Shown here: one piece after another, positions 19,733 to 45,337 of the stretch
How the letters are laid out: each line of letters starts with the position of its first letter
Position numbering within the stretch: the first letter of the stretch is position 1
DNA from: Boletus sp. NGJ
Lineage: Eukaryota > Basidiomycota > Agaricomycetes > Boletales > Boletaceae
NCBI GenBank assembly: GCA_019096195.1
Contig: JAGTXK010000087.1
Location: forward strand, 1-64,000
Length of the DNA stretch: 64,000 bases
Direction: 5' to 3'
Notes under the pieces: model-generated
What the model was told of the DNA's origin: nothing
The model's input: only the letters and a program-made list of their open reading frames with translations
Databases searched by the model: none
Position numbers and translations under genes: made by a program

Positions 19733-19744
19733 AGTCTTGGAATT
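19733..19744 (-). other. Primer-binding site, apparently self-priming type
   Basis: The 12 bases just inside the 5' LTR read, on the sense strand, AATTCCAAGACT. They are the exact reverse complement of 12 bases within the same LTR (19,808-19,819), not an obvious tRNA tail. This is the arrangement used by the Tf1/sushi group, in which the start of the transcript folds back as its own primer. Confidence 0.7.
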
Positions 19745-20101
19745 TGAAAGGGAAAAGACCTTAATATCCTTAGGGGCGCAAGTGCGCTATCCACAGGAGA
19801 GAAAAGGAATTCCAAGACTAGAGAATACAGGTGTTGATACGTTACTTTATATATGTAAGGAAATGTGCACGGACCGGCTTAGGGCCGGTCATAGAAACTA
19901 CTAGAATGTTCTCTATGACGTAGAGTGACGTAGTGGGGTCTAGACTGTTCTAGGGGTATCAGGTTGTGATGTAGTCTGACTAATGTATGATGTATGGTCT
20001 GGGCATAAGGCCTAGACGCGGGATAACTACGTAATCGTTCATGGGAGCGGTAAGTGTTGGCTAACTACAGTAATTGAAAAGAAAATATCTAGGTCGTTTC
20101 A
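19745..20101 (-). repeat. 5' LTR of the gypsy fossil
   Basis: This is a 357-bp direct repeat of 13,101-13,457, about 97% identical. It is the upstream LTR in the element's sense. The second target copy GGTGT lies at 20,102-20,106. Confidence 0.95.
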
Positions 20102-20926: not shown

Positions 20927-21560
20927 CACCTCAGACATGATCAGATAAGTCCGAATAACTTAGTTGATACATATCTGTAAATAGATTGAACCTGGGAAAA
21001 ATAAAATGTTTGCAATAAATATTGTTCACTACATTGAGAAAATGTTTATTACTGTCTGAAAAACTTAGTCATTCAAAAGAGGAAGAATAATGTAGCTAAA
21101 TTTATTCAAAATAATAACTAAGAGTCAATCATATTTACATATTTTATCATATATTTCAAAGAGGATATTCAATTTGTTGCTCTCACAAAGTCTAAAACCC
21201 TATTTTGATTCTGTATACAAGGAATATTTGAGCCTAGCCAATGAGAATTCATGATTACTAATATGTTTATTGTTCAGATGCAGAATATATTTTAGACTTT
21301 GTAAGAGAAACAAAATGAATATCCTCTTTGAAATATATGATAAAATATGTAAATATGATTGACTCTTAGTTATTATTTTGAATAAATTTAGCTACATTAT
21401 TCTTCCTCTTTTGAATGACTAAGTTTTTCAGACAGTAATAAACATTTTCTCAATGTAGTGAACAATATTTATTGCAAACATTTTATTTTTCCCAGGTTCA
21501 ATCTATTTACAGATATGTATCAACTAAGTTATTCGGACTTATCCGATCATGTCTGAGGTG
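20927..21560. mobile_element. Fold-back/MITE-like element, 634 bp
   Basis: The two ends are long inverted repeats of about 270 bp (20,927-21,198 and 21,290-21,560), roughly 97% identical. They separate a loop of about 90 bp. The ends begin CACCTCAGACATGATC. A 3-bp duplication TAC flanks it at 20,924-20,926 and 21,561-21,563. It is very AT-rich and has no coding capacity. A 3-bp target could fit a PIF/Harbinger-type source, but the target is not TWA, so the family is open. Confidence 0.8.
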
Positions 21561-22026: not shown

Positions 22027-22689
22027 GTTGACTCCGTATGCGCGGGTTGGGGTATTGTCAGGTCTTATCACACTTGCGTTTGTTGTACAGACCAATGGAA
22101 CTGGTGAAGTCTGAGTCGATCACTGGCTACCATGGTTTCAATCGATGTATAGGCGGAAGATGCACCGCATACAGTGTGATATCTATGTACATGTAATGCA
22201 TGCTAACACTTCAATCAATGTGTCCCGTCATGTGTACCTGAGCGACAACACAACAACCACATGGGATATCTGATTGAGAGTGTCCCGTAGCCTGATTCTT
22301 CCTGATGCTGATCTAGTGTGAGTCTAACAATGTAAGTGAGAGGAAAGTAAATCGCACCGTTATACGGATCCCCGCAGGGGAGGGTTGGGATGGAGTGGTG
22401 GCTTGTTGCGTCTGATGGGACATGAGCTGATGTGACGAGGTCCATCATCACCAGAAAGCCTGAGAGACGTACTGGTTCGGCTTCCCTTGCATCCGCAGTA
22501 CCTTGCCCACTACGAGAGGCGTCTTCGTTCGGATGTTTGGGAGTAGTGGTCTTGCCGCGCGATTTAGTCTGTAACATGTGATGAGTCTCTGCATACTACA
22601 AATCTGAGGAACAACGAACCGTTCGCCATTTAATGATTTTGTTCCTCGCCGGCTAAGATATGTTCGACACAGCGCATTCGATTGTCCTT

Positions 22690-24375
22690 GAAGGAAATGC
22701 ACTCACAGCCATCATTGAAGGTCCCTCTTGCCTGTCATCCACTCTCGGTGGGGAGTGGGAAGGAGATTGACGATCGGCAGGCTCGCGTGACTTTCTGGAA
22801 AGTCGATCGGACACCGAAGTCCTTGTTACTCTTCCTGAACCTCGTCTGGAGCCACCTCTTGATCACCATGGTCTTGGACGACTCGACATTTTCCTGTCGA
22901 CGCGCCTCTTCGGGGGAGCCCACTGGCGGGTAAACTGATGACTGCGACTATCACGTTAGATGAGCCAACCGGCGGTATCTCATCCTCCCGGAGATCGGCA
23001 GAGGATGCGGTGGACATAGACTCCAGTAGCGTCAACATGGAAGCAAGAGGAGAATAAAGCATCACCAACCTCGTCGTAGTCAAATGATTGAGGGGCGGGG
23101 GTGCTTGACGGCACCTCAGGCTATGCTATTGTGAGAACTCGCTTCGAGGGGGAAACGAATGAACTCGTACGTCGAGGAGATCACTATCGCCATCAGACTC
23201 GAGATGACTGGGATTCCCAGGATCTTGCTGGTGACGAAGTCAGCGAAACTGTTTGGTGACGGAATGACAAAATCGGACTGGGGTGGAGTCACGTACTTTG
23301 CCATTGTGGCTGCCAGATATCGAAGGCCACCCGTCTTGTTGTGGTTCCTTGCGAGTAGATACCAATGTGAGAGGCAGAATACCAGCTTATTCGACATGCA
23401 AGGGCCAAGAAAGCACAAATACTTACATAAAAGGACCGTATGAGTCTGCGAGCACACTGTTGAGGTGATGAATAACAATTTTCCCGTCGCGTCGCCCAGT
23501 CGCGAGATAGCTACTGTCCTGAGAGATGGCAATTGACAGTATTGCATCTTCCTCGATGACAGGACCAGTCCGAGAGAATGTCGACGTGTCCAGGAAGCGA
23601 ATCGAACGGTTCCAAAGGTGGCAATGAATTTATCATTGGGGGCGAGAGCGAGAGAGTAGACACCACTGGGAATGTGCAATTCGGCGAAGCTGGGACCCAG
23701 TGGACACATCAAAAGACTTGATTTTCTTGTCTTGGATATGGCAAAGATTTGTTGACCGTCGCTTGACCACACAAGCGGAGTGACTGGAGTGACTCGGGTG
23801 TGGTGGTGTCGAGGGTGATGAGCTCGTCGCCGTTGCGACTGTCGAAAACACGAATCGAGTGACCGTGGCATGCAGTGGCGATTGTCTCGCCATTCGGGGA
23901 GAACTTGAGTCCAGTAACATTTCGTCATGCTCGAGTGGGCCAACGAGTCGCTCTCCAGTGTCGATGCTCCAAATGCTCGCTTTTTTGTATGTCCCAGTGG
24001 CAAACCGGGTCGAATCAAACGTCCACTGCCCACACCGCGTTTCCACTCTCCACGTCGACGACCTTTTCACGCATCTCTCCGTCCCACACACTTGCCCCAC
24101 CCTAGTCCCACACGCTATCCACTTGCCATCCCTCGACACAGAAATGGCGACACCTCATTCCTTTTGCTTTGCGACCTGTTGACCGTCTGAGAGTCGCCAC
24201 CGTTGAATCCCATCGCTACCCCCGCCCAAAAGATGCTCTCCGTCAGGGTGGAATGCGACTGCATATACAACGGCAGGGCGACCGGTGTCAAGGACCATTG
24301 TTTGGTCTTACTGGAGTGTCAGCATTGCTCAATCACACCTCGGAGCTGCTACCCACCGGTGTTCGTCGACGACAT
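22690..24375 (-). pseudogene. WD40 repeat gene, copy A (broken)
   Basis: This is a paralogue of the intact gene at 25,848-27,566, with the same start (ATGTCGTCGACGAAC, 24,375 downward), the same 19-nt first exon and the same 50-nt first intron (24,307-24,356). WD-type pieces remain recognisable (SRDGKWIACGT; ASIWSIDTGERLVGPLEHDE; KIKSFDVSTGSQL). They lie in at least three frames, with shifts near 24,110, 24,040 and 23,930 and again near 23,690, so the product would be scrambled. Similarity to the other copies extends downstream to about 22,119. It is closest in sequence to copy C on the opposite strand. Confidence 0.75.
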
Positions 24376-25257
24376 CCTCACCAATGGTACACAATTGTCG
24401 GCTTCGAAGAGTGCAAGAACAAAAGTCTAGGCCTCTTTTTCAACACCGGGTTGCCGACAGTTCTTATCTACAGGCCCAAATGCTCGAGTTCAAACGTTCA
24501 GTCACCTGATCGTTGTTTCACATCCCTCGGCGGTCGTTTCAGGGAGTTGGCAACACCTCTGACAGGGTGTCCACCCGTCGTCTTGTCCACCCCGCTGATC
24601 CGTCTGATCGTACACACGCATTATCAACGCGAGATCTTTGGTCAGTGTTCGGGTCCGACTCCATGCCCTCGCTATGGTCTGTCCTGCTGGATATCTCTCA
24701 CCATGCAAAACCTTCCATCCGTTTCACGTTCCGAGTGTCAAAACACTGTCGCGATGCCACATGTTGCAGCGATGGAGAGCCCTTTTGAGTATCTGACGCT
24801 TCAGCGCTCGACACCCCGGTCGTGTGGGAAGTGCAACACCGTGACGGGAACCTCCACCCTTTATAATATATATGTCCTTTTGGATTGAAACGATTACACG
24901 CATAGTTCGTGACAAGACTTTTTTTTCTGTTCGCAAAATGACGCATCTTCCACACGTGATGTAGGTGAAACATGAAACACTGGTAAATCAAGAGGACGGG
25001 ACCCCCACCCTTAAAACGTCCGTTCGGTAGGAGCGTGGGTTGGCACCGTACCTACAGGCGAATCCTGTTCACATTGTTCAGTTGGTCCATCAGAATTGAT
25101 ACTGTTTGGCCCCAATCCATTCTCACCCGTTTCGCGACTATTCCTGTCAATCCCAGGGAGAATGACTATTACGCCCCATACAACAAACTCCTTAACGGAG
25201 CAGACGATTGTGCGTAAACGGTTCCCTGTAATCCAATTCAAAGTTGTCGCTAGTCAA
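24376..25257. other. Spacer between WD40 copies A and B
   Basis: About 0.9 kb with no convincing gene; open frames are short and antisense. An AT-rich TATA-like run lies near 24,860 (TATAATATATATG). The upstream region of copy A would contain its promoter, but no element can be assigned with confidence. Confidence 0.4.
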
Positions 25258-25847
25258 CGAGAGGGCTGGCTACCACGGTTTCAATTAAGCGGAAGTTGAA
25301 CCTCACCGCACATAATTTCAGAGTGCTTGAAAGAACAGTGTGATATCTACATGTAATGCACTCAAACACTTCAATCAATGTGTCCCGTCATGTGTACCTG
25401 AGCGACAACACAACAACCACATGGGATATCTCAAGCTGCCAGTGATCGAAAACCTGAGGGTCCCATAGCCTGATTCTTCCTGACGCTGATCTATTGTGAG
25501 TCTAACAATGTAGGTGAGAGGAAAGTAACGCGCACCGTTACATGGACCCCCGCGGGTTGGGATGGATTGGTGGCTGGTTGCGTCTGATGGGACGTGAGCT
25601 GACGTGACGAGGTCCATCATCACCGGAAAGAGACGCACCGGGTCGGCTTCCCTTGCATCCGTAGCACCTTGTCCGCTACGAGAAGCGCCTTCGTTCGGCT
25701 GCTTGGGAACAGTCTTGCTGCGTGATTTATCCTGTAACATGTGAGGAACCCTGCATCCAAACTCGAGGCACAACAAACCTTTTGTCTTCTGATCGATCTT
25801 GCAGCTACTCGCTAGAATAATATATTTACACCGCATCCAATCATCTA

Positions 25848-27566
25848 TCAAGGAACAGCACCCACTGGCGTAAGTTGACCTGCAGCCATCCACGAAGGTC
25901 CCTCTTGCCTGTCATCCACTCTCGGTGGGGAGTGGGAAAGAGATCGACGATCGGCAGGCTCGCGTGACTTTCTGGAAAGTTGATCGGACACTGAGCCCTT
26001 GTTACTCTTCCTGAACCTCGTCTGGAGCCACCTCTTGACCTTGACCACCATGGTGCCCTTGGACGACTCAAGATTTTCCTCACATGCCTCTCCGGGGGAG
26101 ACCACTGGCGGGTACACTGATGACTGTGCTATAATATGAGATGAGCCAATCGGCGGTATCTCATCCTCCCGGGGATCGGCAGAGGATGTCGGGGACAGAG
26201 ACTCTGGCAGCGTCAACACAGAAGCAAGAGAAGGATCACCAACCTCGCCATAGTTGAACTCGTCAACAGGCGTGCCCGACCGTACCTCGGCCTATGCCAT
26301 CATGAGAACTTACTTCGAGGGGGAAATGAATGAACTCATACGTCGAGGAGATCTCCATCGCCCTTAGGCTCAAGGTGACTGGGCTTGCCAGGATCCTTCT
26401 GATGACGAAGTCAGCGAAATTATTTAGTGACGGAATGACAAAATCGGACTGGGGTGGAGTCACATACTTTGCTTTTGTGGCTGCCAGATATCGATGGCCT
26501 CTCGTTTTGTTGTTGTTCCTCGCGAGTAGATACCTATGTAGTTTGTCAATGTGAGAGGCAGAATTATCCAATATGCAATGGACAAGAAAGCACAAATAAC
26601 TTACACGGAAAGGACCGTACCGGTCTGCGAGCATACCATTGAGACAACGAATGACAGTTTTCCCGTCAAGTCGCCCAGTCGCGACATAGCTACTGTCCTG
26701 CGAGATGGCGATTGTGTGTATTAGTGCATCATCCTCAATGACAGGGTCAGTCAGAGAGTGTGTCGATGTGTCCAGGAACAAGATCGAACTCATTCCAAAG
26801 GTGACGATGAATTTGCCATTGGGGGCGAGAGCGAGAGAGTAGACACCACTGGGAATGTGCAATTCGGCGAGTTGGGACCCAGTCGACAAGTCAAAAGACT
26901 TTATTTTGCTGTCCTTGGATGTGGCAAAGATTTGTTGACCATCGCTTGACCACGCAAGCGGAGTGATTGCAGTGACTCGGGGTGCAGTGGTGTCGAGGGT
27001 GATGAGCTTGTCGCCATTGCGACTGTCGAAAATGCGGACGGAGCGACCCCAACAAGCAGTGGCGATGTGCTCGCCATTCGGGGAAAACTTGAGCCCATTG
27101 ATATCCTCATGCTGGAGTGGTCCAACGAGTCGCTCTCCAGTGTCGATGCTCCAAATGCTCACTTCTTTGAAAGTACCAGTGGCAAACTGGGTCGAATCCG
27201 GGGAAACGTCCACCACATATACCGTGTTTCCGCCCTCCACGTCGATGACCTTTTCACGCATCTCTCCGTCCCACACGCTTGCCCCGCTAAAAGTCCCACA
27301 CGCTATCCACTTGCCATCCCTCGACACAGAAATGGCGAACACCTCCACTCCTATTTGCTTTGAGACCTGTTGACCGTCTGAAACTCGCCATCGTCGAATC
27401 CCATCGTCATTCCCGCCTAAAAGATGCTCCCCGTCAGGGTGGAACGCAACCGCCCGTACATAGTCAGAGCGACCTGTCTCAAGGACTATTGTTTGGTCTT
27501 AACGGAGTGTCAGCATTGCTCAATCACACCTCGGAGCTGCTACCCACCGGTGTTGGTCGACGACAT
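25848..27566 (-). CDS. WD40 repeat protein, copy B (intact, 492 aa)
   Basis: The exon model on minus is 27,548-27,566, 26,605-27,497, 26,468-26,533, 26,342-26,398 and 25,848-26,291. The sum is 1,479 nt, open to TGA. Introns are 50-71 nt with GTGGGT, GTAAGT, GTATGT and GTATGA donors. The first uses an AAG acceptor behind a CTGAC branch-like motif. Residues about 8-305 form WD40-like blades (VAFHPDGEHLLGG..IRRW; SVSRDGKWIACGT; FSPNGEHIATA; LAWSSDGQQIFATS). The tail of about 180 residues is Ser/Pro/Arg-rich and probably disordered. WD40 proteins are scaffolds for protein complexes; the partner here is unknown. It is the only undamaged member of three local copies. A conserved downstream stretch (25,375-25,840) might be an alternative last exon. 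Confidence 0.75.
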
Positions 27567-27939
27567 CCTCATCAATGGTATGCAGTTGTCAGCTTCAAAG
27601 AGTGGAAGAACAACGTGTTTTGGTTTACTCGTGGTACGCAAATATACTCCATACTACACACGTTTCCTTGTTCTCAATGTGGTCTGTTCGCACACTGCCT
27701 CGTATCTTTCGCGCGTATCCACAGCTTTGTGACCTCATTGTGACCAGGTAAAGAGTCAACATTTGCGAATGCTTGTCACCACTAGAAATCACTTTATGTT
27801 ATCACGCCTTGTATTACCTTATAAGCTCTGCCGTGAGTAAAATCTGAGAGGCCACCCCATAGTTTTAATGCAAGAAAGTAACTGTAATAACAATTGTTAG
27901 TGTTGTGCACAGCTCATTGTAACAAGAGGTCTGCATTAC
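27567..27939. other. Upstream region of WD40 copy B
   Basis: No gene is visible. About 190 bp next to the gene are similar to the region upstream of copy C (36,690-36,837). The next 180 bp are unique and end at the outer edge of the palindrome arm. Confidence 0.5.
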
Positions 27940-28267
27940 TCATGCAAGACACCATGCATGACTTGCGGATCCCCTGTACTTTCTCATGGTACCACTTGTA
28001 GGCCATATTTAGTTTGCTTCACAGCTGAGTATAGAATTGGTGGCAGTAGCTGATAAATCGGCAGTTACCGCATTGCTTTGATGGTAGTGGAGTGTTCGAT
28101 GCTTACATAAGGGCTTTGACTGCCCTGTTGGCAGTCCCAGAACATCCGTGACATGTCCATTTTTGGATTGTGGGATGAACATATGCTTCCTCCACTTTCT
28201 GCTCAACCATTCATTCCCCCAGCTTTAGACAGCACTCCAGTTGATTCCAACAATATTCTATAGTATA

Positions 28268-30855
28268 CAGTGGCTCAAAAAAGTGTCCCAATGTTTGGCT
28301 ATTTTGCAAAAACTTGACATTTGCAAAAGAACCAAAAGGTGTTAGCCCTAACCCTTGCTGGGCCATTGATAGCCCTAATCCTTGCCCTGAAGATAAGCTC
28401 TTAGTCATGTGATTTGGTTGTCATGGCACTGAGATATAGCCATATTAAAGTGGCATGTCATTGGGACACTTTTTTGAGCAACATTTCTATTCTTCAATTT
28501 AGTACTTTGTATGCCCTCCCTTCACTTTTATCACTGCCTCTAGTCTTCTAGGCATACTCTCTATCAATCCTTGACACTCCTCAACCTCTATCTTCCCCCA
28601 CTCCACTTCAATTCTCTCCCAAAGCTCCCATACTCCTTTTGGTGGTTGAAACGATCACTGTTGATATCATCCATTTATTAATGATCCCACCTACACCTTT
28701 GCACTACCCATAGACGATACACTCGCCTACCCTCACCAAACTCCATACTAGCCTAACCCCGCATACGCCTAGAGTAGTTACTTGTTGTATCCTCCCCCAT
28801 GCAATACACCACACAACCACATACACCTACGTACACTTTCACTAGTCGTACCCCCGTCGTACCCATTACACTACGACACCAAGTAGCCTCATGGCTAACC
28901 CCAGCGTCCACCGCCACAAGCACAGGCCTGCACGCCTCTAAACTGCCACACCCTGTGGACATACCTGACGCAGCGCTCGGTATCCACACAAGAAACCGCA
29001 GACCGTACCTGACACAGCGCTCAGTACGCTACACAAGTACTAATCAGGAGTTCACCTCCAGATCCTTGAATCCCCCGCTCAATCCTCGACCCCCAGTTCA
29101 CACTGTAGATCACCCCTCGCACCGCCAAGTACTAATCAAGCCCATGCTAGATTAACCCTTAGACACAGACAAGACCCAATCTATCACTCGATACGATCTC
29201 GTCTCAATACCAGATCCAACGATCACCCTATGTGATGCCTTACGCATCACCCTTTCAATTCCTCTTTTGCTTCTCATCTCCATTTCTATCTATTAGCCCC
29301 CTTTGATATATCACACATAGCCACGCCTAGAGCGCCCCGGACTACATTTCACTTATATGCATGTATCCACATGCATCTCGTTCCATCATTTCTCCTTTTT
29401 GCCATTGGACACTAACATTCCTCGTTCCTGTGATGTCATACCTGGTACCCACGATGTCATAGCATAGCACGGTCCGTGCACCACTATCGGTAGTATATAA
29501 GTAGCCGGTAGAGTACCATGTTTCACTTAGTCTTGAAATTGCCTTTCTCTCTGTCACATATTGCTCCAGTTAGCAATGCTTCAGATATTGGGTTTAGGTT
29601 CTTTCCTTCGTCTATTGCAAGTTCCTTTCAGTGGTATTATATAGCTATTGAGCTTTTTTTTGAGAATTTGCCAGAGATGTTCAATGGGATTAAGGTCTGG
29701 AGATTGTGCTGGCCAGTCAAGAAGCTTGATCTCTTGAGATTCCAGCCACTTCTTGGCTCTTTTAGAGGTGTGCTTGGGGCCATTATCTTGTTGAACGATA
29801 ATGCTCTCCTCAGGAATTTTAGAATTTTCCATGGAAGGAAGCAGATTATCCTTCAAAATGGAGACATACTGCTCAGCATTCATTCTCCCTTCAACCTCTG
29901 CCAGAATCCCCACTCCATTCCAACTTATGCATCCCCAAACCATCAAGGAACCTCCTCCAAACTTTACTGTTCCCTGAACTTCCTTGTCTTGCAAAGACTT
30001 TCCTGCCAATTTCCATACATACTTCCTTCCATCTGACCCAATCCTGTTGATCTTGGTTTCATCTAACCATCTAACCCTAGTCCAGTCCTCCACAGTCTAA
30101 TGTTGGTGCTTGAGAGCAAAGGCTAGCCTATGTTGTCTATGCTTTACAGACAAGAATGGCTTCTTTTTCTTGACTACAGCCTTAAGAGATGCAGACTTGA
30201 GAACATTCCTAACAGTTTGAGCAGAGACAAGAGAAGAGAGAGCAGAATTGATGAGATGGGTAGCCTGGACAGCATTTTCAACTTTGCCAGAGGTAATACT
30301 AGAGACAATTCTCCTTTTATCAGTAGAAGAAAGTTTAGAAGGACATCCTAATTTGATGTTTTCCTTGCCTGTGTGGATCTCTTTGATAACCCTGGCCACA
30401 GTAGACTTCCCCAGACCAGTTTGGAATGATATTTACCTAGTAGAAAGGCCAGATTCAGAGAGAAAAAGAATATTGACTCTACTAGAGAAGGAAATGGATT
30501 TCATGATGAAGTAGGGTTGGCTGAATGGTATCTCTGCTTTTTATACCATTTGGAATTATGTAAGTGACATAATCAGACAGGGTTGAAGCACAGCATCCAT
30601 CAGAATCTTATGTTAGTTACTAAATGATAGTTAATAATATCAGAGTCAAATAAGTGTCCTAATGACATATTATTTTAATATGGCTATATCTCAGTGCCAT
30701 GACAATCAAATCACATGACTAAGAGCTCATCTTCAGGGCAAGGATTAGAGCTATCAATGGCCCAGCAAGGGTTAGGGCTAACACCTTTTGGTTCTTTTGC
30801 AAATGTCAAGTTTTTGCAAAATAGCCAAACATTGGGACACTTTTTTGAGCCACTG
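28268..30855 (-). mobile_element. Tc1-type DNA transposon, left-arm copy (dead, carries a solo LTR)
   Basis: The element starts and ends with inverted repeats (CAGTGGCTCAAAAAAGTGTC) between TA dinucleotides. It is 1,599 bp long once the inserted solo LTR is removed. The transposase reads on minus (about 29,640-30,510) and keeps the DDE signature residues (VRWLDETK, IVQQDNGPKH, DLNPIEHLW). An in-frame TAG replaces the Trp codon found in the right-arm copy (near 30,097), and the 984-bp insertion splits the 3' part, so it cannot make a transposase. It differs from the right-arm Tc1 at roughly 5% of bases, far more than the surrounding arm. Confidence 0.9.
28647..29630 (+). mobile_element. Solo LTR (fossil) inside the left Tc1 element
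   Basis: A 984-bp insertion begins TGAAACG and ends CTTTCA. It is flanked by the 5-bp duplication GTGGT (28,642-28,646 and 29,631-29,635). The right-arm copy shows the empty site. There is no internal coding region, and a TATATAAG box near 29,495 fits an LTR promoter on plus, so it is a solo LTR of an LTR element not otherwise present. It is full of CpG while its host Tc1 has almost none, which points to a late arrival. Confidence 0.8.
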
Positions 30856-31273
30856 TAGGACACAATTTTGTACTGTTTCAAATGTAATATTATAGCTTGT
30901 ATGGCAAGATATGTGAAATAAGCAGAAAATAGAAAAGTGCACAACCACTATTCAAAGTATCAGGGCAAGTATCTCAGGATATAGAATACATATAATACAT
31001 CATAATACCAAGTTTTCAAAAGGCTATATTAAATGTTGAGAGCAGGAGAGCCAAAATAACATATAAAAAGTGAGCTGAAACTTAGAAGACTTGCAAAACA
31101 TATTAGGAACACAACAATTCAGGGCTTAGATGATACTGGGAAATAAGGATGAACTATTTCTATTTTAAGTCATTAGAAATTAGTCTGGATGCTATTCCTG
31201 GCATTCTGTGGTATAAAAATATTTAAAAAGTGAAATTTTTATTAAAGCTCTCAATAATCCACTTGCTCAAAGC

Positions 31274-31860
31274 TGTAAGTTCAGCAGTGAAATGATACTG
31301 TACAACCCTGATATCCCTACATATTTCTCAATCCTTGCTACACTTTGCACTACCTACAGTATAGATGATACTCTCACCTACTTCAACCAAACTGCACCCT
31401 TATCTACACACACATACACCTACATTAAAAACCTTGCAGAAAGTGGACATTGTCTAATTTGACATGCTGTGGGTGCTCTGCCTGAAAAAATCATGATCAT
31501 GTGATCTCAACATGTCAGTGAGGTGAAAACACCCTTGCCATCATTTTTCTATGTTGCTTGAGAGTAGATAATAGTATATTGTAATTTATCATGACTATTC
31601 TGTAGTGCACACATTCTTGTCATGTACTAAACAAACCAATATTGCATTACATTCCCCATATTGTATGCTTGTGAGATCTGCCTGACTGAGAGTGTATAGA
31701 CTAACAATGACTGAATTACAGTGCACTGTACCTCTTCTGTGCCAAAACATCATTGTCCAATTCTTCCCCCTCATTGGCAATCACCTTGTTCAGCTTGTAG
31801 TATTGCTGCAGCTTCAAGCTGAATTTTTTTATCTCATCCATTTCATTATGGACCTCTATA
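31274..31860. other. Spacer segment, with a possible decayed LTR piece
   Basis: This part of the palindrome spacer is not present in the copy at 141-2598. No gene is seen. Around 31,330-31,420 the sequence resembles part of the solo LTR near 28,690-28,740 (CTTTGCACTACC, then CACCTAC..CAACCAAACT) with CpGs changed to TpG or CpA. It may be an old relative. The remainder may continue the Plavaka relic but shows no clear motif. Confidence 0.4.
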
Positions 31861-34318
31861 TATTATGGATAGAAATGTGGTTTCTGGTGACAGCTATTAG
31901 ATAAAAAAAGAATTATATAAATTGGACCAGCCAATCAGGAGTTATTCTCTTTAAGCTATTCTTCAGCTTTAATGAAGCCAATGCTTAACACTAATGCTCT
32001 TTTGGACTTAATAGATCAATGGCTAAATCAATTCATGAACTTCTTTTTCCATCTAATAGATTTGATAGTAGACTATATTTCATTCACTAGAAGCATCACA
32101 GTCCATGAAGAAATGGGCATGCTGGACAAAAAAGCTGATATTAAAGCTGCAAAAGTCAGAAGCTGAGCTGAGGCAACACTAACATGATGACATGCTCCTA
32201 ATGTTGGCTTACCATGGGTGTATTTCGACTGGTTGCCAACAAAGAGATAAATTGGCCATAGTGATATGATGCCAAAGTTTGTGAGCTAGGTGGTATTGGA
32301 CCAAAACATGAGAGGGATGGCAATATGCTCATATGTGTCACCTACCTCTCTTGGAAGGTCATTGACTTCTGCATGAGCTTTTAGCATTTCTGGAGATGTA
32401 TATATCTCTGAATAGACCCTAAGTTTGCAACTGTCAGTTGAAGTCTAGTGTTCTTCAAATGGAGTGATATAAAATAGCTTCAAGATCTTGTCACTTAAGA
32501 CCAATTTGATAATATTGACAAGTGAGTGATGAGTGACATTGACTGGGAACATTGGGATTTGGGGATCATTCTCGGAGCTATATTTAACATTCTCCTTGAG
32601 CAAGGGAATAGTGACCTTGCTCTGCTTTCAACCATGCTCAGCTCAAAATGGATTACCCTCCTTGTGAAGGTACTTTTGTATCTTTTTCTGTTCCTTCTCA
32701 TATGAGAATTTTGAGACTGCAATGGGATTGAAAAGTGGATCTTTGATGAATGTTTAGAGGCATTGTAGTTCAGCAATAGATTTTGTGTTTGAACCAGAAT
32801 ACTGCCAGCATATGAGTAAGCCAGCAGTGGGATTGCTAAATGCTGAGAATAAATTATCCCACATAATATCAGCAACCGGATGAAGACTGCCAATCCAACT
32901 TGCAGCATGGGGAAGATCCCACTCTAGTGTTGGTGCTTCAACATGCAAGGCAATTGTATGGTTTTGATTGGGATCAAGTGTTAGTTGTGATGGATATATG
33001 TGAAAGAGACCAAAGCCATTAGGCTTGGTTTGGTGATGAGCTATATTACTAGCTGGTTGTAGAGCATGAGCACTTGAGGGGTGAGGGGCAGGTGATACTG
33101 GGGCTTGAAAAGAAGTATCTATTGCATCACCTGGCAAGTAGTCATTGTAGCATGTTGACTTCTATGCAGGTAAAAGCAATGGAAATCCTTTTTCAAATGG
33201 TAGGTTTTCCCAGACATTTGCTTTGCCTCCCATGGTTAGAACACTATAAGCTAGGGGAATTTTTACCTCCTAGATAAAACAATCTCTAGATCTGCTAGGT
33301 TTGAGTCAGTTGAATACTTAGTATAACTAAGTGCACAGATTGTTTGCCAATTTCCAACAAATGCTGAAGAATTGGAATTGAAATGGTTTCAACTATAGTC
33401 TGGTTAATAGTGTAAATAACTGTAAACAACTGTAAATATGTCTAAAAGTATGCTAGTCAATGCTACTAGATTGCTAGACTTTGATTAGTAGGCTTTTTTA
33501 GAAGGTCAAATGAGTTAATTGCTATAAAAGGCAATGACTTTGTGGCTGGTAATCCACAGATATGCTGGATTGTCAAGATGTTGAGATCTTCCAGGTAAGG
33601 CTGGAATAGGTTCACACTACACTTACATCACTCAGATAGGTTATGACAACTCAATCTTATTGTTTGCTAAGGAGAGTGCAATTTAGTGCTTATTTGGCTG
33701 TACTGTCACTTATCCTCTTAGGTGGGCAGTCAGCAGAGTAGCAGGGATGTTTGGGGTCTAGTAGTATTAAACTGTTGGGGATCTATTCCCTTTTATTGCC
33801 CTATTTAGGGTTGTCTCTCAAAAGGTGTTCTATATTTCTTGTGCACTATTGGCTACAGGAATTTACTCCTAACAATCTGACTAGCTGTCTAAACAATGGA
33901 GAATGTCCTCCTCAAGGTCCTCTGTGGGTTGCCTGTGAGTGGTACTCTAAGTAGGGATGAGAATTGTTCTCCTTGAGAGAACTTCTCTGGTTAAGATGCC
34001 CTGTATGAGGGGTGATCTGCTCTCTTTGTGGCCTGAATGGCTCTCCTTTTATGGATAAATACATGGGCTTGGCTAGCCAATCAGAAGGGTTGGCTGCTTA
34101 CTAATGCCAAGCTTTTGCTGACTGAAACATAGAACTTCAAAGAATGCCATAGAACTCCATGGAATACCATGGAAGGTCATGAAGTGTTTAGTCAGGTGAC
34201 ACAAGGCAGTATAGCCCATGATCACATGATCATGTTCTCTCACTGGCACTTAGCTATATACATATTATTTACAGTTCTACTAGCTATGTACTTGTAGATA
34301 GTAACAGAGCTATATGTT
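31861..34318 (-). mobile_element. Plavaka-type relic, copy 2 (in the palindrome spacer)
   Basis: A 2,458-bp near-perfect repeat of positions 141-2598 (offset 31,720), with about five differences, all transitions. It carries the same FGLF, SGSNTKS and GNQSKY..CHHV remnants on minus and the same interrupting stops. Unlike copy 1 it has no Tc1 end at its left border, and the sequence runs on into unique DNA there. Its right border at 34,318-34,319 meets the start of the right palindrome arm. Confidence 0.65.
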
Positions 34319-34737
34319 CGCTTTGAGCAAGTGGATTATTGAGAGCTTTAATAAAAATTTCACTTTTTAAATATTTTTATACCACAGAATGCCAGGAATA
34401 GCATCCAGACTAATTTCTAATGACTTAAAATAGAAATAGTTCATCCTTATTTCCCAGTATCATCTAAGCCCTGAATTGTTATGTTCCTAATATGTTTTGC
34501 AAGTCTTCTAAGTTTCAGCTCACTTTTTATATGTTATTTTGGCTCTCCTGCTCTCAACATTTAATATAGCCTTTTGAAAACTTGGTATTATGATGTATTA
34601 TATGTATTCTATATCCTGAGATACTTGCCCTGATACTTTGAATAGTGGTTGTGCACTTTTCTATTTTCTGCTTATTTCACATATCTTGCCATACAAGCTA
34701 TAATATTACATTTGAAACAGTACAAAATTGTGTCCTA

Positions 34738-36337
34738 CAGTGGCTCAAAAAAGTGTCCCAATGTTTGGCTATTTTGCAAAGACTTGACATTTGCAAAAGA
34801 ACCAAAAGGCATTAGCCCTAACCCTTGCTGGGCCATTGATAGCCCTAATCCTTGCCCTGAAGATGTGCCCTTAGTCATGTGAGTTGGTTGTCATGGTACT
34901 GAGTTATAGCCATATTAAAAGGATATGTCATTGGGACACTTATTTGACCCTGATATTATCAACTATCATTTAGTAAATAACATAAGGTTCTGATGGATGC
35001 TGTGCTTCAACCCTGTCTGATTATGTCACTTACATAACTCCAAATGGTATAAAGAGCAGAGATACCATTCAGCCAACCCTACTTCATTATGAAATCCACT
35101 CCCTCCTCTGCTAGAGCCAATATTCTTTTTCTCTCTGAATCTGGCCTTTCTACTAGGCAAATATCATTCCAAACTGGTCTGGGGAAGTCTACTGTGGCCA
35201 GGGTTATCAAGGAGATCCACCCAGGCAAGGAAAACATCAAATTAGGATGTCCTTCCAAACTTTCTCCTACTGATAAAAGGAGAATTGTCTCTAGTATTAC
35301 CTCTGGCAAAGTTGAAAATGCTGTCCAGGCTACCCATCTCATCAATTCTGCTCTCTCTTCTCCTGTCTCCGCTCAAACTGTTAGGAATGTTCTCAAGTCT
35401 GCATCTCTCAAGGCTGTAGTCAAGAAAAAGAAGCCACTCTTGTCTGTGAAGCATAGGCAACATAGGCTAGCCTTTGCTCTCAAGCACCAACATTGGACTG
35501 TGGAGGACTGGACTAGGGTCAGATGGTCAGATGAAACCAAGATCAACAGGATTGGGTCAGATGGAAGGAAGTATGTATGGAAATTGGCAGGAAAGTCTTT
35601 GCAAGACAAGGAAGTTCAGGGAACAGTAAAGTTTGGAGGAGGTTCCTTGATGGTTTGGGGATGCATGAGTTGGAGTGGAGTGGGGATTCTTGCAGAGGTT
35701 GAAGGGAGGATGAATGCTGAGCAGTATGTCTCCATTTTGGAGGATAATCTGCTTCCTTCCATGGAAAATTCTGGAATTCCTGAAGAGAGCATTATCGTTC
35801 AACAAGATAATGGCCCCAAGCACACCTCTAAAAGAGCCAAGGAGTGGCTGGAATCTCAAGGGATCAAGCTTCTTGACTGGCCAGCACAATCTCCAGACCT
35901 TAATCCCATTGAACATCTCTGGCAAATCCTCAAAAAAAAAACTCAATAGCTATACAACACCACCAAAAGGAGTATGGGAGCTTTGGGAGAGAATTGAAGT
36001 GGAGTGGGGGAAGATAGAGGTTGAGGAGTGTCAAGGATTGATAGAGAGTATGCCTAGAAGACTAGAGGCAGTGATAAAAGCAAAGGGAGGGCATACAAAG
36101 TACTAAATTGAAGAATAGAAATGTTGCTCAAAAAAGTGTCCCAATGACATGTCACTTTAATATGGCTATATCTCGGTGCCATGACAACCAACTCACATGA
36201 CTAAGGGCTCATCTTCAGGGCAAGGATTAGGGCTACCAATGGCCCAGCGAGGGTTTGGGCTAATACCTTTTGGTTCTTTTGCAAATGTCAAGTCTTTGCA
36301 AAATAGCCAAACATTGGGACACTTTTTTGAGCCACTG
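34738..36337 (+). mobile_element. Tc1-type DNA transposon, right-arm copy (1,600 bp, nearly intact)
   Basis: It has a TA target duplication at 34,736-34,737 and 36,338-36,339, and inverted terminal repeats starting CAGTGGCTC. Further internal repeats include a second GTGTCCCAATGACATGTC motif near each end. It encodes a single transposase with a small in-frame break near the C-terminus. This is the best-preserved of the Tc1 copies in the window and the natural reference for the family. Confidence 0.93.
35089..35949 (+). pseudogene. Tc1 transposase, DD34E (C-terminal frameshift)
   Basis: The protein starts MKSTPSSARANILFLSE, with a helix-turn-helix DNA-binding half (TRQISFQTGLGKSTVARVI) over about residues 10-110. 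The catalytic core follows: Asp in WSDETKINRIG, Asp in VQQDNGPKHTS, and Glu in PDLNPIEHLWQ, with 34 residues between the last two, the Tc1 spacing. The frame ends early at QILKKKTQ because of an extended A-run near 35,931-35,941. The left-arm copy has a shorter run there. The lost tail (LNSY..PPKGVWELWERI) is still readable in the next frame to about 36,106. Full family proteins are about 340 residues, so only the C-terminal tail is affected. Confidence 0.9.
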
Positions 36338-36837
36338 TATACTATAGAATATTGTTGGAATCAACTGGAGTGCTGTCTAAAGCTGGGGGAATGAATGGTT
36401 GAGCAGAAAGTGGAGGAAGCATATGTTCATCCCACAATCCAAAAATGGACATGTCACAGATGTTCTGGGACTGCCAACAGGGCAGTCAAAGCCCTTATGT
36501 AAGCATCGAACACTGCACTACCATCAAAGCAATGCAGTAACTGCCGATTTATCAGCTACTGCCACCAATTCTATACTCAACTGTGAAGCAAACTAAATAT
36601 GGCCTACAAGTGGTACCATGAGAAAGTACAGGGGATCCGCAAGTCATGCATGGTGTCTTGCATGAGTAGATCCGAATAAGAAATTAAAGAATAAGCGCCA
36701 AAGACACAAGGCAGTGTGCGAACAGACCACATTGAGAAGAAGGAAACGTGTATGCAGTATATTTGCGTACGACGAGTAAACCGAAACACATTGTTCTTCT
36801 ATTCTTCGAAGCCGACAATTGTGTACCATTGGGGAGA

Positions 36838-38530
36838 ATGTCGTCGACGAACACCGGTGGGTAGCAGCTCCGAGGTGTGATTGAGCAATGCTGACACTCC
36901 AGTAAGACCAAACAATAGTCCTTGACGTCGGTCGCCCTGCCGTTGTATATGCAGTTGCGTTCCACCCTGACGGAGAGCATCTTTTAGGCGGGAGTGACGA
37001 TGGGATTCAACGATGGCGACTCTCAGATGGTCAACAGGTCACAAAGCAAACAGGAATGATGGTGTTCGCCATTTCTGTGTCGAGGGATGGCAAATGGATA
37101 GTTTGTGGGACTATGAAGGGGGCAAACGTGTGGGACGGAGAGTTGCGTGAAAAGGTCATCGACGTGGAGGGCAGAAACCCGGTGTATGCGGTGGACACTT
37201 CCCCAGACTCAACCCGGTTTGCCACTGGGGACTTTACCAAGAAGCGAGCATTTGGAGCATCGACACTGGAGAGCGACTCGTTGGCCCACTCGAGCATGAC
37301 GATGATGTTACTGGAGTCCAGTTCTCCCCGAATGGCGAGCAAATCGCCACTGCATGCCACGCTCACTCGATTCGTGTTTTCGACAGTCGCAACGGCGACG
37401 AGCTCATCACCATCGACACCACTATACCCATTTCTTACTCCAGCCATTTTCGCTCTTGTGGTCAAGTGACGGTCAACAAATCTTTGCCATATCCGAGGAC
37501 AACGAAATCAAGTCTTTTCGATGTGTCGACTGGGTCCCAGCTCGCTGAATTGCACATTCCCAGTGGTGTCGCCTCTCTCGCTCTCGCCTCGAATGGCAAA
37601 TTCATTGCCACCTTTGAAAGCCGTTCGATTTCGTTCGTGGACACGTCGACACTCTCACGGACCGGTCCTGTCATCGAGGAAAGTGAACGGATACTGTCAA
37701 CTGCCATCTCTCAGGACAGCAGCTATCTCGCGACTGGGCGAATGGATGGGAAAATTGCCATTCGTCATCTCAACGATATGCTTGCAGACTCATATGGTCC
37801 TTTTAATGTAAGTATTTGTGCATTGCATGTCGGATAAGCTGCTATCCTGCCTCTCACATTGGTATCTACTCGCAAGGAACCACAACAAGACGGGTGGCCT
37901 TCGATATCTGGCGGCCACAATGGCAAAGTACGTGACTCCACCCCAGTCCGATTTTGTCATTCCGTCACCAAACAGTTTCGCTGACTTCGTCACCAGCAAG
38001 ATCCTGGGAATCCCAGTCACCTCGAGTCTGATCTCCTCGACGTACGAGTTCATTCGTTTCCCCTTCGAAGCGAGTTCTCACAATAGCATAGCCTGAGGTG
38101 CCGTCAAGCACCCCCGCCCCTCAATCATTTGACTACGACGAGGTTGGTGATTGCTTTATTCTCCTCTTACTTCTGTGTTGACGCTACTGGAGTCTATGTC
38201 CACCGCATCCTCTGCCGATCTCCGGGAGGATGAGATACCGCCGGTTGGCTCATCTAACGTGATAGTGCAGTCATCAGTTTACCCACCAGTGGGCTCCCCC
38301 GAAGAGGCGCGTCGACAGGAAAATGTCGAGTCATCCAAGACCACGGTGATCAAGAGGTGGCTCCAGACGAGGTTCAGGAAGAGCAACAAGGACTCAGTGT
38401 CCGATCGACTTTCCAGAAAGTCACGCGAGCCTGCCGATCGTCAATCTCCTTCCCACTCCCCACCGAGAGTGGATGACAGGCGAGAGGGACCTTCAATGAT
38501 GGCTGTGAGTGCATTTCCTTCAAGGACAAT
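36838..38530 (+). pseudogene. WD40 repeat gene, copy C (broken)
   Basis: This is the inverted paralogue of copies A and B. ATG lies at 36,838, with the same 19-nt exon 1 (36,838-36,856) and 50-nt intron (36,857-36,906). WD40 pieces follow (VSRDGKWIVCGT; STRFATGDFT; TGSQLAELHIPSGVASLALASNGKFIAT; SSYLATGRMDGKIAIRHL). A frameshift near 37,240-37,260 and a disrupted stretch near 37,420-37,470 break the blade region. The disordered tail (SSADLREDEIPPVGSS; KRWLQTRFRKSNKDS) is well kept at 38,200-38,490. Similarity to copy A continues to about 39,075. An exon after 38,640 (TKSRGKTTTPKHPNED) may belong to it. Confidence 0.7.
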
Positions 38531-39075
38531 TGAATGCGCTGTGTCGAACATATCTTAGCCGGCGAGGAACAAAATCATTAAATGGCGAACGGTTCGTTGT
38601 TCCTCGGATTTGTAGTATACAAAGACTCATCACATGTCACAGACTAAATCGCGCGGCAAGACCACTACCCCAAAACATCCGAACGAAGACGCCTCTCGTA
38701 GTGGGCAGGGTACTGCGGATGCAAGGGAAGTGGACCAGGTGCATTTCTTCCTGGTGATGATGGACCTCGTCACATCAGCTCATGTCCCATCAGACGCAAC
38801 AAGCCACCAATCCATCCCAACCCTCGCCCGCGGGGGTCCATGTAACGGTGCGCGTTACTTTCCTCTCACCTACATTTTAGACTTACAATAAATCAGCATC
38901 AGGAAGAATCAGGCTATGGGACCCTCAGGTTTTCGATCACTGGCAGCTTGAGATATCCCATGTGGTTGTTGTGTTGTCGCTCAGGTACACATGACGGGAC
39001 ACATTGATTGAAGTGTTAGCATGCAATACATGTACGTAGATATCACACTGTTTGAAAATATATGCGGTGCATATC

Positions 39076-40606: not shown

Positions 40607-43600
40607 ATGGAAAAGTCTACTGCTGAATCCAGCTCGCAGATTCAGAAGTCAGCGGATGGCCAGGGACGTCATGGGATACAGATAGGGTGCCTTTCTTTCA
40701 TTGCCACTCATCAAATTTTTTTTTTCGTTGACCTTTCAACGCCAACAGGTATCGCACTCTTTCAATTCGTGTCGATGAAAAAGTCGGACAAAAAGTCAAG
40801 AAGTCTGCAGACCCTGCAGACGCCATTGTTGCCATCGATGTCCACCTCATCCCGACCGACCAGGTCTTCGTTCGCTACTCGTCCAGTCCCACCGTCGGTC
40901 TCGAGTCTGCTGCGGTCGAACGCAGATTAAAGGATGGGAAAAACGTTATTAGCCCTCCTCCTACCAAGTACTGGTTGAAAGCGCTCAACTACATCTTCGG
41001 AGGTTTCAACTTCCTCATGTGGATTGCGTTCGTCGTCACGGTTGTAGGTCCCCCCCCCCCCATCTACATCCCCCTTCTTCACGTCCATAATGACAGACTT
41101 TCTAGCTCTCCTATAAGCCCTTGGGGCAGCCCCCGCTTATTTTCAACCTCGGTGTCGCTGTTCTCCTCGTAAGCGCCACCTCTACTCCCCCGCCTTTCTT
41201 TAACTTCTCAGCATAGATGCTCGTCATCATCATCTCCGCTACGTTCTATGCTTTGGTAGACTTTCACGCAAACCGCATCATGAAGTCCATCAAGTCTCTC
41301 ATCGCTGAGGAGGCTGCGGTCATCCGGGGCGGCAACCAACAACTCATCTCTGCAAATGACATTGTCGTCGGGGACATTGTCGTGCTCTCTACTGGTGATC
41401 GTGTACCTGCCGATCTCAGGATTGTTGAAATGTCATCTGATTTGCGCTTCGATCGCTCTCTCCTTACCGGCGAAAGGTCGGTTCAACTGATCCTATCGAA
41501 ATGATGTCATCATTGATCCGTACGCTAGTGATATGATCCCCGGCTCCCTCGATGCTACTGCTCAAAACGCCCTCGAGACACGCAACTTGGCACTCAACTC
41601 GACCTTCGTCACGCAGGGAAACTGTCTTGGCGTAGTATTCGCCACCGGTGATCGCACCGTCATGGGGCGGCTGGTCCGCATGTCGGGCGAGTCAAAGTTC
41701 AAATTGACGACCATCCAAAGAGAAATTTGGTTCTTTACCAAGGTCATTTCCACCGTCGCACTTTCCCTCTTCTGTTTTTCGCTCCTTTTGTTCGGTGTTT
41801 GGCTTCGCAAGAGTTATCCGGGATACCTCACCATCAGTGGAGCCATTTCCAACTCTATCGGGTGTCTGACTGCATTCGTGCCCCAGGTGAGTCCTTTTGT
41901 CTAAAGCGGTGTACCAAAACACTCAATCTCCGCATACTCAGGGTCTCCCTATCTGTGTTGCCCTTTCCTTGACTGTCATTGCACGTCGCATGGCCAAGAG
42001 AAGCGTCCTCGTCAAAAACTTGGCGACCATCGAGACACTCGGTTGTATTTCTGTTTTGTGCTCTGACAAAACGGGTACCCTAACCGCGGGAAAGATGGTA
42101 AGCCATACTGTTGCCCTTACCCGACTGGTGCGCCAACTATCCCTTTAGGCTGTCGCGTCTATCGCGTTCCTTAATGGTTCCATGAAAGCCGACGAGCTTG
42201 AGGGGCAAGTAGCGAATATGGCTGATCCTCGGGTATACGCTGGCCTTGATGCCACGCACAAGGTCACAAGACTCTGCAACGGCGCCAAGTTTGATGCTGG
42301 TACCGCCGACCGCCCAATCGCAGAGCGTGTCATCAAAGGAGACCCCACCGACACTGCTCTTCTCCGCTTCTCCGAGGCGCTATCCGTCCCCAGTCTGAGC
42401 ATCAATACGTCTTCGCTCTTGGAAAATTCGAAGCGCTTATTCGAAATTCCGTTCAACTCCAAGAACAAGTGGATGCTTTCGGTCATCGAGGTCAACGATG
42501 TAGTCGATGGCGATATCAGCGAAAAGAACAGCAAGACGTGGATGTTTGCCAAGGGTGCTCCAGACATCTTGTTCCGCTCTTGCAGTACGGCCATGAAATC
42601 GGACGGCTCTGTTGTGCCGTTTGATGACTCGGCAAAGGAAGAATTCGGCGCTATCCAGAGCACATGGTCGAGTGAGGGCCAGCGTGTCCTTGCATTGTAC
42701 GTATTCCATTGTCTCCCATGGCCCAGGGCGTGTTCGCTCAAGAATAGTTACAGATGCCGCAAGCCGCTCGAGGTATTCAAGGGGCATCTGCCCCCGAGTG
42801 ATCTAGAAGCGGTCATGTATGGTGAAATGCAAGACCTGACATTGGTCGGACTGGTCGGTATCCGTGACCCTCCCCGGCCCGATGTTCCCGCGGCTATTGA
42901 TGTCATCCGGAGAGCCGGCGTCCGGGTATTCATGGTCACCGGAGATTTCAAATTGACCGCCGTGGCAATCGCTCATCAGGTAGGGCGCCGCAAGTTGCAT
43001 ATGCTATCCGTGTCCTTGCTAATGTCAATGTGCTCGTCCAGGTTGGAATTATTACCCAAGAACGCGTCGATACCATTGACGACGTTCGTGCGGCGGTCGA
43101 CAAATATCCCGAGGGTATTCCCCCACCACTGATCAAGCCGTCCGACGACGATCCTATTCGCGCCGTCGTTCTAACTGGTGAAGATGTGGCCACCCTTAGT
43201 CCCCTCGACTGGAACGTCGTTGTCGGATCTTACACCGAAATTGTATTTGCGCGCACGACCCCTGACCAGAAAATGTCAATCGTAGAAAATATCAAAGCTC
43301 GGGGGGACAATACCGTCGCAGTCACCGGTGACGGTGTCAACGATGCTCCGGCGCTCAAAGTATCTGACATAGGCGTCGCCATGGGAAGCGGAAGTGATGT
43401 TGCAAAGGAAGCCGGTGAGTGCTGTCCAGACCTTTCCATCGTTGTCCCCCAGTTGACCCAAACACAGCTGCACTCATCTTGCTCAACAATGACTTTTCAT
43501 CCATCCCCGTGGCTATTGAGATGGGTCGTTTGGTATTTGACAACCTGAAGAAAGTGACGCTCTATCTTATGCCAGTAAGTCATCCTCGAATCCCACCTGA

Positions 43601-44485
43601 CATGTCAAACCTGTATCCCCCAAGGTCGGTTCATACACCGAATTCATGGCAGTCCTCGCCAACGTCTTGATGGGGATGCAAATTCCATTGAGTTCGTACC
43701 TGCAGGTCTGCTTCTCGATCACAAACGACGTTGTCATGTCCATTTCCTTGATGTACGAGAAAGCGGAAGCTGACCTCATGCTGCGAAAACCGAGGAATGC
43801 CAGGACGGACCGGCTCACGGACTGGCGGCTGTTCGTCCAAATATATCTGGTCAGTTACTGCACAGGTTCCAAGAGCACGGACTTACTGTGAACCAGTTCC
43901 TCGGGCTCATGGCCTGGCCCTGCTGTATGGCCATGTGGTTCGTATACATGGACCAGAATGGCCTCAGTTTCTATGACGTTATCCTGACTTACAACCAGTG
44001 GGGAGCTGGTTGGCAGAATAAGACGAGCGATGAACTCACAACTCTCGTCAACACCGGGCAGTGTATCTAGTAGGTGCTTCGTTCCTCCGCGGCTACTCGA
44101 GCGTTGACCCGGAATAGCTACGTGACCATGGTGTTCATTCAATACGGTGTCCTTCTTGCTATTCGCAACAGGAGAGTCTCGCTTTTGCAGTCGAATCCGC
44201 TTTGGGGACCAAGGCAGAACCTGATCGTACTCGTTGGGATGCTCGGTACGGCTCTGATCGCCGTTACCAATCTGTATGGGCCAGGACTTCAGGCCGTCTT
44301 CAACACCACGCCAATCCCGGCTATGTTCTGGGGCATACCTTTTGGCTTCGCGCTTGCGATATTGATCGTAGACGAACTACGTAAACTGATCGTCAGGACC
44401 TATCCCAAAGTAAGTCAAATCATATGTGCAACAATGCCATCTAACGGCATTGGACTAGTCGATCATTGCCAAGATGGCGTGGTAA
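40607..44485 (+). CDS. Na+,K+-ATPase-like P-type ATPase (type IIC), first copy, 1060 aa
   Basis: There are fourteen exons: 40,607-40,686; 40,749-41,043; 41,106-41,168; 41,217-41,476; 41,529-41,886; 41,942-42,097; 42,149-42,696; 42,754-42,979; 43,042-43,414; 43,468-43,574; 43,625-43,849; 43,897-44,069; 44,118-44,409; 44,459-44,485. The sum is 3,183 nt, in frame. The start sits in ACCATGG. Motifs: actuator TGES (residues 230-233, split by an intron), phosphorylated Asp in CSDKTGTLT (about 394), KGAPDILF in the nucleotide domain, [21 protein letters not shown] (about 757-763), ten expected membrane helices, C-terminus KMAW. The class is shown by [22 protein letters not shown] and VATIETLG-like blocks of animal Na+,K+-ATPases. 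It pumps cations across a membrane at the cost of ATP. In the M4 site PEGL is PQGL, and the M6 Asp804 position is Ser, so the ion is uncertain. Fungal ACU/NK-type pumps are the nearest known group. Confidence 0.93.
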
Positions 44486-45337
44486 CATACCGTAGTCCAT
44501 CAGCGAGGCTGTGGACACCTGTAACCATACACTATGCATATATTGTGACATGTTTAGAATCCTGGAGAAATCAGTTGGAATTGATGTTCGTACCCATTTC
44601 CCTGTGAGCAGATATGCCGAAGTGCATCCGTTCATGTTACATCAAGATCGAGGACCTCGGCCGATCCATGTCACCGACACTGTAGTCCGCGGCTCACCAA
44701 AGCAAGAGGAGGGAGGGGGGGGGAGGGTTCCACGCATCGACCAGCGGAACACGAGGCTGTGTGCTGCCAAGCAGGGGGAGTCTAGATGGGTTCCGAAAGA
44801 ATTAATAGCACCTGGGGAAGGTCATTTTATACATCGACCCCCACCGCTGACGCTGATTGTGGGGGCAATGGCGGCTTTTTCGCGAGTGGGGTGATCGTAA
44901 CGGACTGCACTGCTCAACAATGCGCTTGGCAAGGCTATCTCGCGTGGTAAACGACTCGCTTCAAGGCACGCCGTTTTTTTTTACGAGCGGCGAATGCCAC
45001 GCAGGTCAGAAAGGTGGCTCCCGTGGGTCAACGTGAGAGGGAGACGGAGAGGCGGCCGTACCGCGCTGTGCAGAACGCAGTAGAGTCACAGGAATACAAG
45101 TTATCCATCTCCGGTCAACTTACGTCAATTTAGGTAAATGAACTCGTCCCGAGCTTCCGAGCTCTCTAATTCTGGTAGCAATCAGTATCACTGTCAATGC
45201 TTTATTGTCTACGAGGTAAAACTGATGCAATTCGCACCACCTGTGCTGCCAGGGCTTGAATGGCGAAAACAGCGCGAATCACACTGTGGTAGATAAAGCA
45301 ATCTCCAGAGCTCCACAATGCCCACAACTTTGATACT
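44486..45337. promoter_or_regulatory. Intergenic region between the two ATPase genes
   Basis: About 850 bp, CpG-rich, with no supported gene. A poly-G run near 44,715 and a poly-T run near 44,975 stand out. It must hold the 3' end of the first gene and the promoter of the second. I found no clear TATA box. An ATG at 45,318, out of frame with the main start, opens a frame overlapping the gene start. Confidence 0.4.

Follow-up and report, generated by a model that had tools for sequence, protein, structure and literature searches.

Staggered breaks are reported to leave inverted duplications behind, as described for inversions 2h and 2q of Drosophila mojavensis, and in one study four of 14 Drosophila breakpoints lay between duplicated genes (both as given in the excerpted text of PMC3355041). 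Here we describe a fungal locus with some of these properties: a palindrome with a Tc1/mariner transposon copy in each arm, at positions 27,937-36,668 of a 64,000-nucleotide stretch of Boletus sp. NGJ (assembly GCA_019096195.1, contig JAGTXK010000087.1, positions 1 to 64,000, hereafter the window). Like 2h and 2q, as that excerpt presents them, the locus has inverted copies of a segment around an intervening stretch and lies between duplicated genes. Unlike them, the copies consist of 0.74 kb of transposon-nest DNA around only 3 kb.

Two further systems invite comparison. In maize, Mu killer, an inverted duplication of a transposon, silences that same transposon, by a proposed route through hairpin RNA (excerpt of PMC3440606). 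The Boletus locus resembles Mu killer, as far as it is portrayed in that excerpt, in holding two inverted transposon copies in one locus, but differs in having a 3-kb spacer. That the palindrome, set between two divergent WD40 genes, is read through into a long double-stranded RNA of two Tc1 variants, which would then be a trans-acting silencer of the Tc1 family and a fungal counterpart of Mu killer, seems to us highly improbable. Compared with DD34E Tc1/mariner elements of the Sleeping Beauty type, the transposons in the arms are alike in their transposase domains, catalytic spacing, TA targets and inverted termini; what sets this locus apart is that the copies sitting at one site in its mirrored arms are unlike each other. 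It is this mismatch between the divergence of the flanks and that of the Tc1 copies that is the most noteworthy point of the locus, the rest being an ordinary scar of a transposon-rich region.

Anatomy of the palindrome

Comparison of the window with itself, by self-BLAST and a repeat search, returned two inverted pairs that together make up the palindrome: 34,320-35,971 with 31,273-29,623 (96.5% identity over 1,652 columns) and 35,959-36,668 with 28,646-27,937 (97.7% over 710 bp). Since the longest ungapped inverted pair extends for 1,620 nt at 97%, the palindrome is not a product of chance. Alignment sets the outer boundaries of the arms at 27,937 and 36,668 and the inner ones at 31,273 and 34,320. 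A preliminary description of this DNA had reported a near-perfect palindrome here, which the self-comparison confirms, with coordinates correct to within 3 bp. It had also given both arms as about 2.35 kb, a length that holds for the right arm (34,320-36,668; 2,349 bp) but not for the left (27,937-31,273; 3,337 bp), which is longer because a 984-bp solo long terminal repeat (LTR) lies within its Tc1 copy.

Read outward, the right arm begins with a 416-bp inner flank, continues with a 1.6-kb Tc1 copy and closes with roughly 330 bp of outer flank, and the left arm has the equivalent parts plus the solo LTR. The left inner flank (30,858-31,273, plus strand, 31% GC) aligns with its inverted copy at 34,320-34,735 (minus strand). 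The left outer flank (27,937-28,267, plus strand), in which we include the TA occupied by the left Tc1, has its inverted copy at 36,338-36,668 (minus strand) and aligns with 36,342-36,668. No further copy of the arm flanks was found elsewhere in the window, and when 27,719-28,267 was translated in six frames, the two that were run against Pfam gave no match.

The solo LTR (28,647-29,630, plus strand) is missing from the right arm in the alignment. It has TGAAA...TTTCA termini and is bounded by a 5-bp target duplication, GTGGT, at 28,642-28,646 and 29,631-29,635, and so displays the TG..CA termini and short target duplication by which LTR retrotransposons are recognised.

The Tc1 copies are more diverged than their flanks

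In both arms the Tc1 copy occupies the same TA, in orientations that are equal once mirrored, so at first sight the two copies would be expected to be as alike as the flanks around them. They are not. Segment-wise alignment of the arms gave a single mismatch in the 416 positions of the inner flank and four in the 327 of the outer flank, or 5/743 overall (99.3% identity, in keeping with the 99% previously estimated outside the Tc1 copies), whereas the left and right Tc1 copies differ at 66 of 1,603 positions (95.9%; Fisher p = 8e-7 for the contrast). The longest mismatch-free run, 299 bp, spans the inner Tc1 boundary, and runs of at least this length arose in 66 of 20,000 random placements. In four of the five flank differences the left arm has C where the right arm has T; the fifth is a transversion.

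Together the arms differ at 71 aligned bases, and an LTR has inserted cleanly into one of them, its target duplication still intact. The suspicion, raised in the preliminary description, that the palindrome might be an assembly artefact is therefore unlikely in its simple fold-back form. Identical flanks might alternatively be put down to gene conversion from arm to arm, but this is disfavoured: it would have to halt close to where the Tc1 begins, on either side, and spare the Tc1 copies themselves. Hairpins, breakage and conversion between the arms, which the preliminary description linked with such structures, would be expected of palindromes in general; the pattern of Tc1 divergence speaks against conversion from arm to arm that passes through the Tc1 copies.

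The right Tc1 copy (34,738-36,337, plus strand) has a transposase frame that is open from 35,089 to 35,949, closing just past a run of ten A. It matches the Pfam domains PF13358 (DDE_3; E = 3.7e-19) and PF01498 (HTH_Tnp_Tc3_2; E = 1.3e-12) and Sleeping Beauty 5cr4 (E = 2.2e-46), and 34 residues separate the second D from the E (DD34E). The left copy (28,268-30,855, transposase on the minus strand), delimited from its terminal repeats, is the one interrupted by the solo LTR; its repeats, TA included, have 28,266 and 30,857 as their outermost positions. Both arm copies have TA-flanked inverted termini. A third Tc1 copy is cut by the edge of the window, with one TA-flanked end inside it (1-140) and the other beyond; with three copies in the window, the Tc1 family is common here. 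Searches further afield say little for a fungus, because the collections hold viruses, prokaryotes and plasmids: among viral contigs the right Tc1 protein gave one pattern match, which was not confirmed, and two exact patterns gave none, prokaryote genome contigs searched with the Tc1 terminus yielded nothing, and a plasmid collection searched with the right arm had no match.

Comparison of the terminal repeats adds a second line of evidence. Four variants, at repeat positions 44, 74, 132 and 146, are common to both left repeats and are found in neither right repeat; two of the four, which include A-to-G and G-to-T, are not C-to-T or G-to-A changes. The end of the third Tc1 covers three of these four positions and sides with the right copy at all three. 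Over repeat positions 1-140, the left pair differ at two positions and the right pair at five, left and right repeats differ from each other at six to seven, and the third end has five and five differences from the left repeats and three and four from the right.

Within the transposase frame, left and right copies differ in 29 codons, 11 of them synonymous, 16 non-synonymous and two being in-frame stops in the left copy; by codon position, the differences number 9, 10 and 12. Set against the 116:235:32 that results when every possible C-to-T and G-to-A change is counted, a baseline that takes only these changes although some of those observed are of other types, the ratio of 11:16:2 looks neutral (p = 0.69). 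Of the 56 transitions between the two copies, 48 place A/T in the left copy where the right copy has G/C. We read the left Tc1 as a probably inert, decayed copy, and the two copies do not look like simple descendants of a single co-duplicated one.

Origin of the mismatch

The reading we prefer, to which we give a probability of about one half, is that a segment of about 743 bp was recently duplicated in inverted orientation and that the Tc1 of one arm was then overwritten by a dispersed Tc1 copy through ectopic conversion. Under this reading, an older cluster of WD40 genes with one inverted member would have taken in transposons, and duplication of the segment would then have placed inverted copies to the left and right of a Plavaka-derived spacer, between two divergent members of the cluster. 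The duplication may have come about through staggered breaks, with the spacer turned over in a small inversion, or through template-switch repair; the sequence fits either. Replacement of one arm's Tc1 by another dispersed copy, by ectopic gene conversion or gap repair, would have stopped at the Tc1 ends because homology stops there. Finally, an LTR retrotransposon would have entered the left Tc1 and left its solo LTR. We infer this order of events, as well as the mechanisms of duplication and replacement, from the contrast between flanks and Tc1, the 299-bp run, the variants shared by the left repeats, the neutral codon pattern and the direction of the transitions; the matching 5-bp duplication around the left LTR and the WD40 copies, which are far more diverged than the arms, are in further support.

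A second way to arrive at unlike copies is two independent insertions, sharing both TA and orientation, into arms that were already inverted and free of Tc1, the left copy being a decayed element moved in trans. This would account for divergence changing where the Tc1 ends, as well as for the separate variants of the left copy, and the abundance of the family in the window speaks for it. However, the Tc1-free arm (747 bp as constructed for this count) has 66 TA sites, such that, barring a hotspot, a second random hit on the same site in the same orientation has a chance of about 1 in 132. Because of this figure, and because conversion ends at the Tc1 ends without extra assumptions, our inference favours ectopic conversion, leaving independent insertion as the chief alternative, though a clearly less probable one.

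Several observations weigh against a duplication followed by conversion. Both steps are deduced from the sequence of a single window. The tract of the supposed conversion is inexact, with the nearest mismatches 43 bp inside each Tc1 end and at least 120 bp outside. Over repeat positions 141-210, the left outer repeat pairs with the right outer (three differences, against seven to eight for other pairs), as co-descent of the two copies predicts; this is offset by the left and right inner repeats, which do not pair (seven differences), and the picture is mixed. The right Tc1, moreover, is not pristine, since 12 of 210 bases differ between its repeats, exceeding the nine of the left pair. And the neutral codon pattern equally fits decay in place.

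Some of these points would be expected if the Tc1 predated the duplication and the left copy simply mutated faster, for instance by C-to-T change linked to silencing. The prevalence of A/T on the left among the transitions, the neutral codons and the pairing of outer with outer repeat at positions 141-210 are all in favour of this. Against it, the flanks of the left arm are without such change, four of their five differences having the C on the left; no sequence context was prominent among those listed, as judged by eye; and the four variants present in both left repeats, A-to-G and G-to-T included, need further conversion between the repeats. We therefore find faster mutation of the left copy improbable. 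A burst on the left arm resembling repeat-induced point mutation was also considered and rejected, as the flanks, though duplicated as well, are spared.

If ectopic conversion is indeed the source of the swap, loci of this kind could gauge conversion among dispersed transposons in fungi. Whatever the source, the identity of the copies and that of their neighbourhood are uncoupled here, in that the flanks say the arms are recent and the Tc1 copies within them say otherwise. Dating insertions or duplications by the transposon alone would mislead at this locus.

The spacer

Between the arms lies a spacer of 3,046 bp (31,274-34,319, from self-comparison and alignment), in agreement with the transposon-bearing spacer of about 3 kb previously noted. 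In principle, the arms could recombine with each other and so invert it. Its right 2,458 bp (31,861-34,318, minus strand) are a direct copy of 141-2,598, at 99.8% identity (five mismatches in 2,458), and contain a match to the Plavaka domain PF18759 (E = 3.6e-7; 30.1 bits against a cutoff of 26.3) in a minus-strand frame with X placed at stops. The match is limited to about 32,190-32,594 (135 residues, 576-710 of the frame), the Pfam search having taken one of the six spacer frames. We take 31,861-34,318 as probably a decayed transposon derived from Plavaka, the rest of the 2.46 kb beyond the Pfam match being assigned to it by extension.

The second copy of this sequence, together with the end of the third Tc1, occupies 1-2,598 (plus strand). 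The third Tc1 is inserted at a TA exactly where the homology begins, and the corresponding TA in the spacer is empty. At the other side the homology ends at 34,318, one base short of the right arm. Plavaka families, of the CMCT clade, have been reconstructed from Agaricomycotina, with PlavakaA ending in TGT..ACA and flanked by a 2-bp duplication and PlavakaB ending in CATCA..TGATG (excerpted text of PMC12730594). The spacer element is like those of the excerpt in its above-cutoff match to the Plavaka domain and unlike them in being decayed. The spacer begins with TGT at 31,274, with GC on both sides, and its right end lacks ACA. A 15-base motif occurs in inverted orientation near both ends (31,492 and 34,220); comparison of one spacer end with the other gave a terminal-repeat score of 16, where the highest among 100 shuffles was 15, a score that rests on this one shared motif.

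Towards its left end the spacer contains a fragment (31,309-31,427, plus strand) similar to the solo LTR in its 5' part, with a local score of 35 where 100 shuffles reached 17 at most; blastn also detects it at 31,338-31,422 (71%, E = 6e-5). Extrapolation would place the beginning of the LTR-like sequence at about 31,288.

These repeats bear on whether the palindrome is a misjoin, that is, two real paralogous or allelic loci brought together in assembly via shared transposon sequence. The inner junctions lie in repeats and most of the spacer has its 99.8% copy elsewhere in the window, as such a misjoin would have it. The 71 differences between the arms and the clean LTR insertion with its target duplication are unexpected of a fold-back chimera, however, and we hold a misjoin to be unlikely. 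The window contains no N.

A further alternative is that the whole structure is a transposon of fold-back type, with inverted ends of about 0.74 kb, that inserted at a TA and had Plavaka and Tc1 nested inside it. The homology of the arms does end at TA on both sides, as duplication of a TA would give, and the window has another palindromic element, cleanly terminated, at 20,927-21,560. A TA edge, though, has a chance of about 1 in 16, the flanks have no other copy in the window, and the ends are not known to match any named terminus, although no search aimed at this was made; we consider this origin very unlikely. The palindrome looks like a real, recent and ordinary rearrangement in a nest of transposons.

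A second Plavaka transposase fragment was seen at 7,187-9,222, with a PF18759 match (E = 5e-45) followed by a match to DUF6830 (E = 3.5e-33). Taken with the Tc1 elements, a Gypsy-like retrotransposon, an F-box gene and the WD40 family, the presence of Plavaka would suit a mushroom-forming fungus, probably an agaricomycete.

WD40 gene copies on either side

Three copies of a WD40 gene surround the palindrome. Copies A (22,168-24,422) and B (25,334-27,718), both on the minus strand, are in tandem, and copy C (36,691-39,054, plus strand) is inverted relative to them; B adjoins the left arm and C the right. Copy B has an open frame of 411 amino acids with WD40 matches. In copy C two overlapping frames match WD40 and no frame spans the whole copy (introns or frame breaks). 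Copy A is named from its DNA similarity to B and C, the single frame run against Pfam (23,633-24,154) being without a match.

The weak mirror symmetry of WD40 copies beyond the arms, noted earlier, is real, in that 36,691-39,052 of C matches 27,718-25,334 of B at 82.2%. To describe it as a continuation of the palindrome is misleading, as C is nearer to A (22,168-24,422; 90.6%). Because divergence among the WD40 copies greatly exceeds that between the arms, and the nearest relative of C is A, not B, the arms and the WD40 genes probably have separate histories, and on these divergences we rejected a single event for both. The divergence also suggests that the duplication and inversion of the WD40 genes are older than the arms, with the proviso that exchange may blur their ages.

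Such exchange is suggested by the clustering of shared sites. A three-way alignment gave 271 sites that join A with C, 127 that join B with C and 106 that join A with B, counts that take in an upstream end where A is non-homologous. In the core (columns before 2,390), 263 A-C and 65 B-C sites fall in 70 runs, against a minimum of 81 in 5,000 permutations; the longest B-C run, of eight, was reached in none of the permutations, and the longest A-C run, of 33, in 162 of them. At 38,810-39,000, copy C is like B (98% in one 150-column block), while elsewhere it is mostly nearer to A, a likely trace of exchange. At 24,422 the homology of copy A to B and C halts abruptly, about 100 bp before the end of the B-C homology, as if the upstream side had been swapped out. 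The 218 bp beside the left arm showed no similarity above shuffled sequence either to the stretch beyond A (score 10, shuffle maximum 16) or to the sequence that adjoins the right arm, taken as far as 36,790 (score 8, shuffle maximum 15).

Other elements in the window

The palindromic element at 20,927-21,560 is 634 bp long and near-perfect, with 271-bp arms at 99%, CAC...GTG ends and TAC on either side, and would fit a miniature element of CACTA/EnSpm type with a 3-bp target duplication. A Ty3/Gypsy-like retrotransposon occupies 13,101-20,101; it has matches to reverse transcriptase, RNase H and an integrase zinc finger in frames split over several open reading frames, and LTRs of about 357 bp that are 97% alike, with TGAAA...TTTCA termini and GGTGT on both sides. 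An imperfect tandem repeat at 4,613-4,925 is short, with a unit of about 97-98 bp at 88% and a partial third copy. At 41,213-48,483 lies a putative P-type ATPase gene in two tandem copies (two stretches 70-73% alike), for which the one frame tested matched PF00122, and the genes of the window also include an F-box gene.

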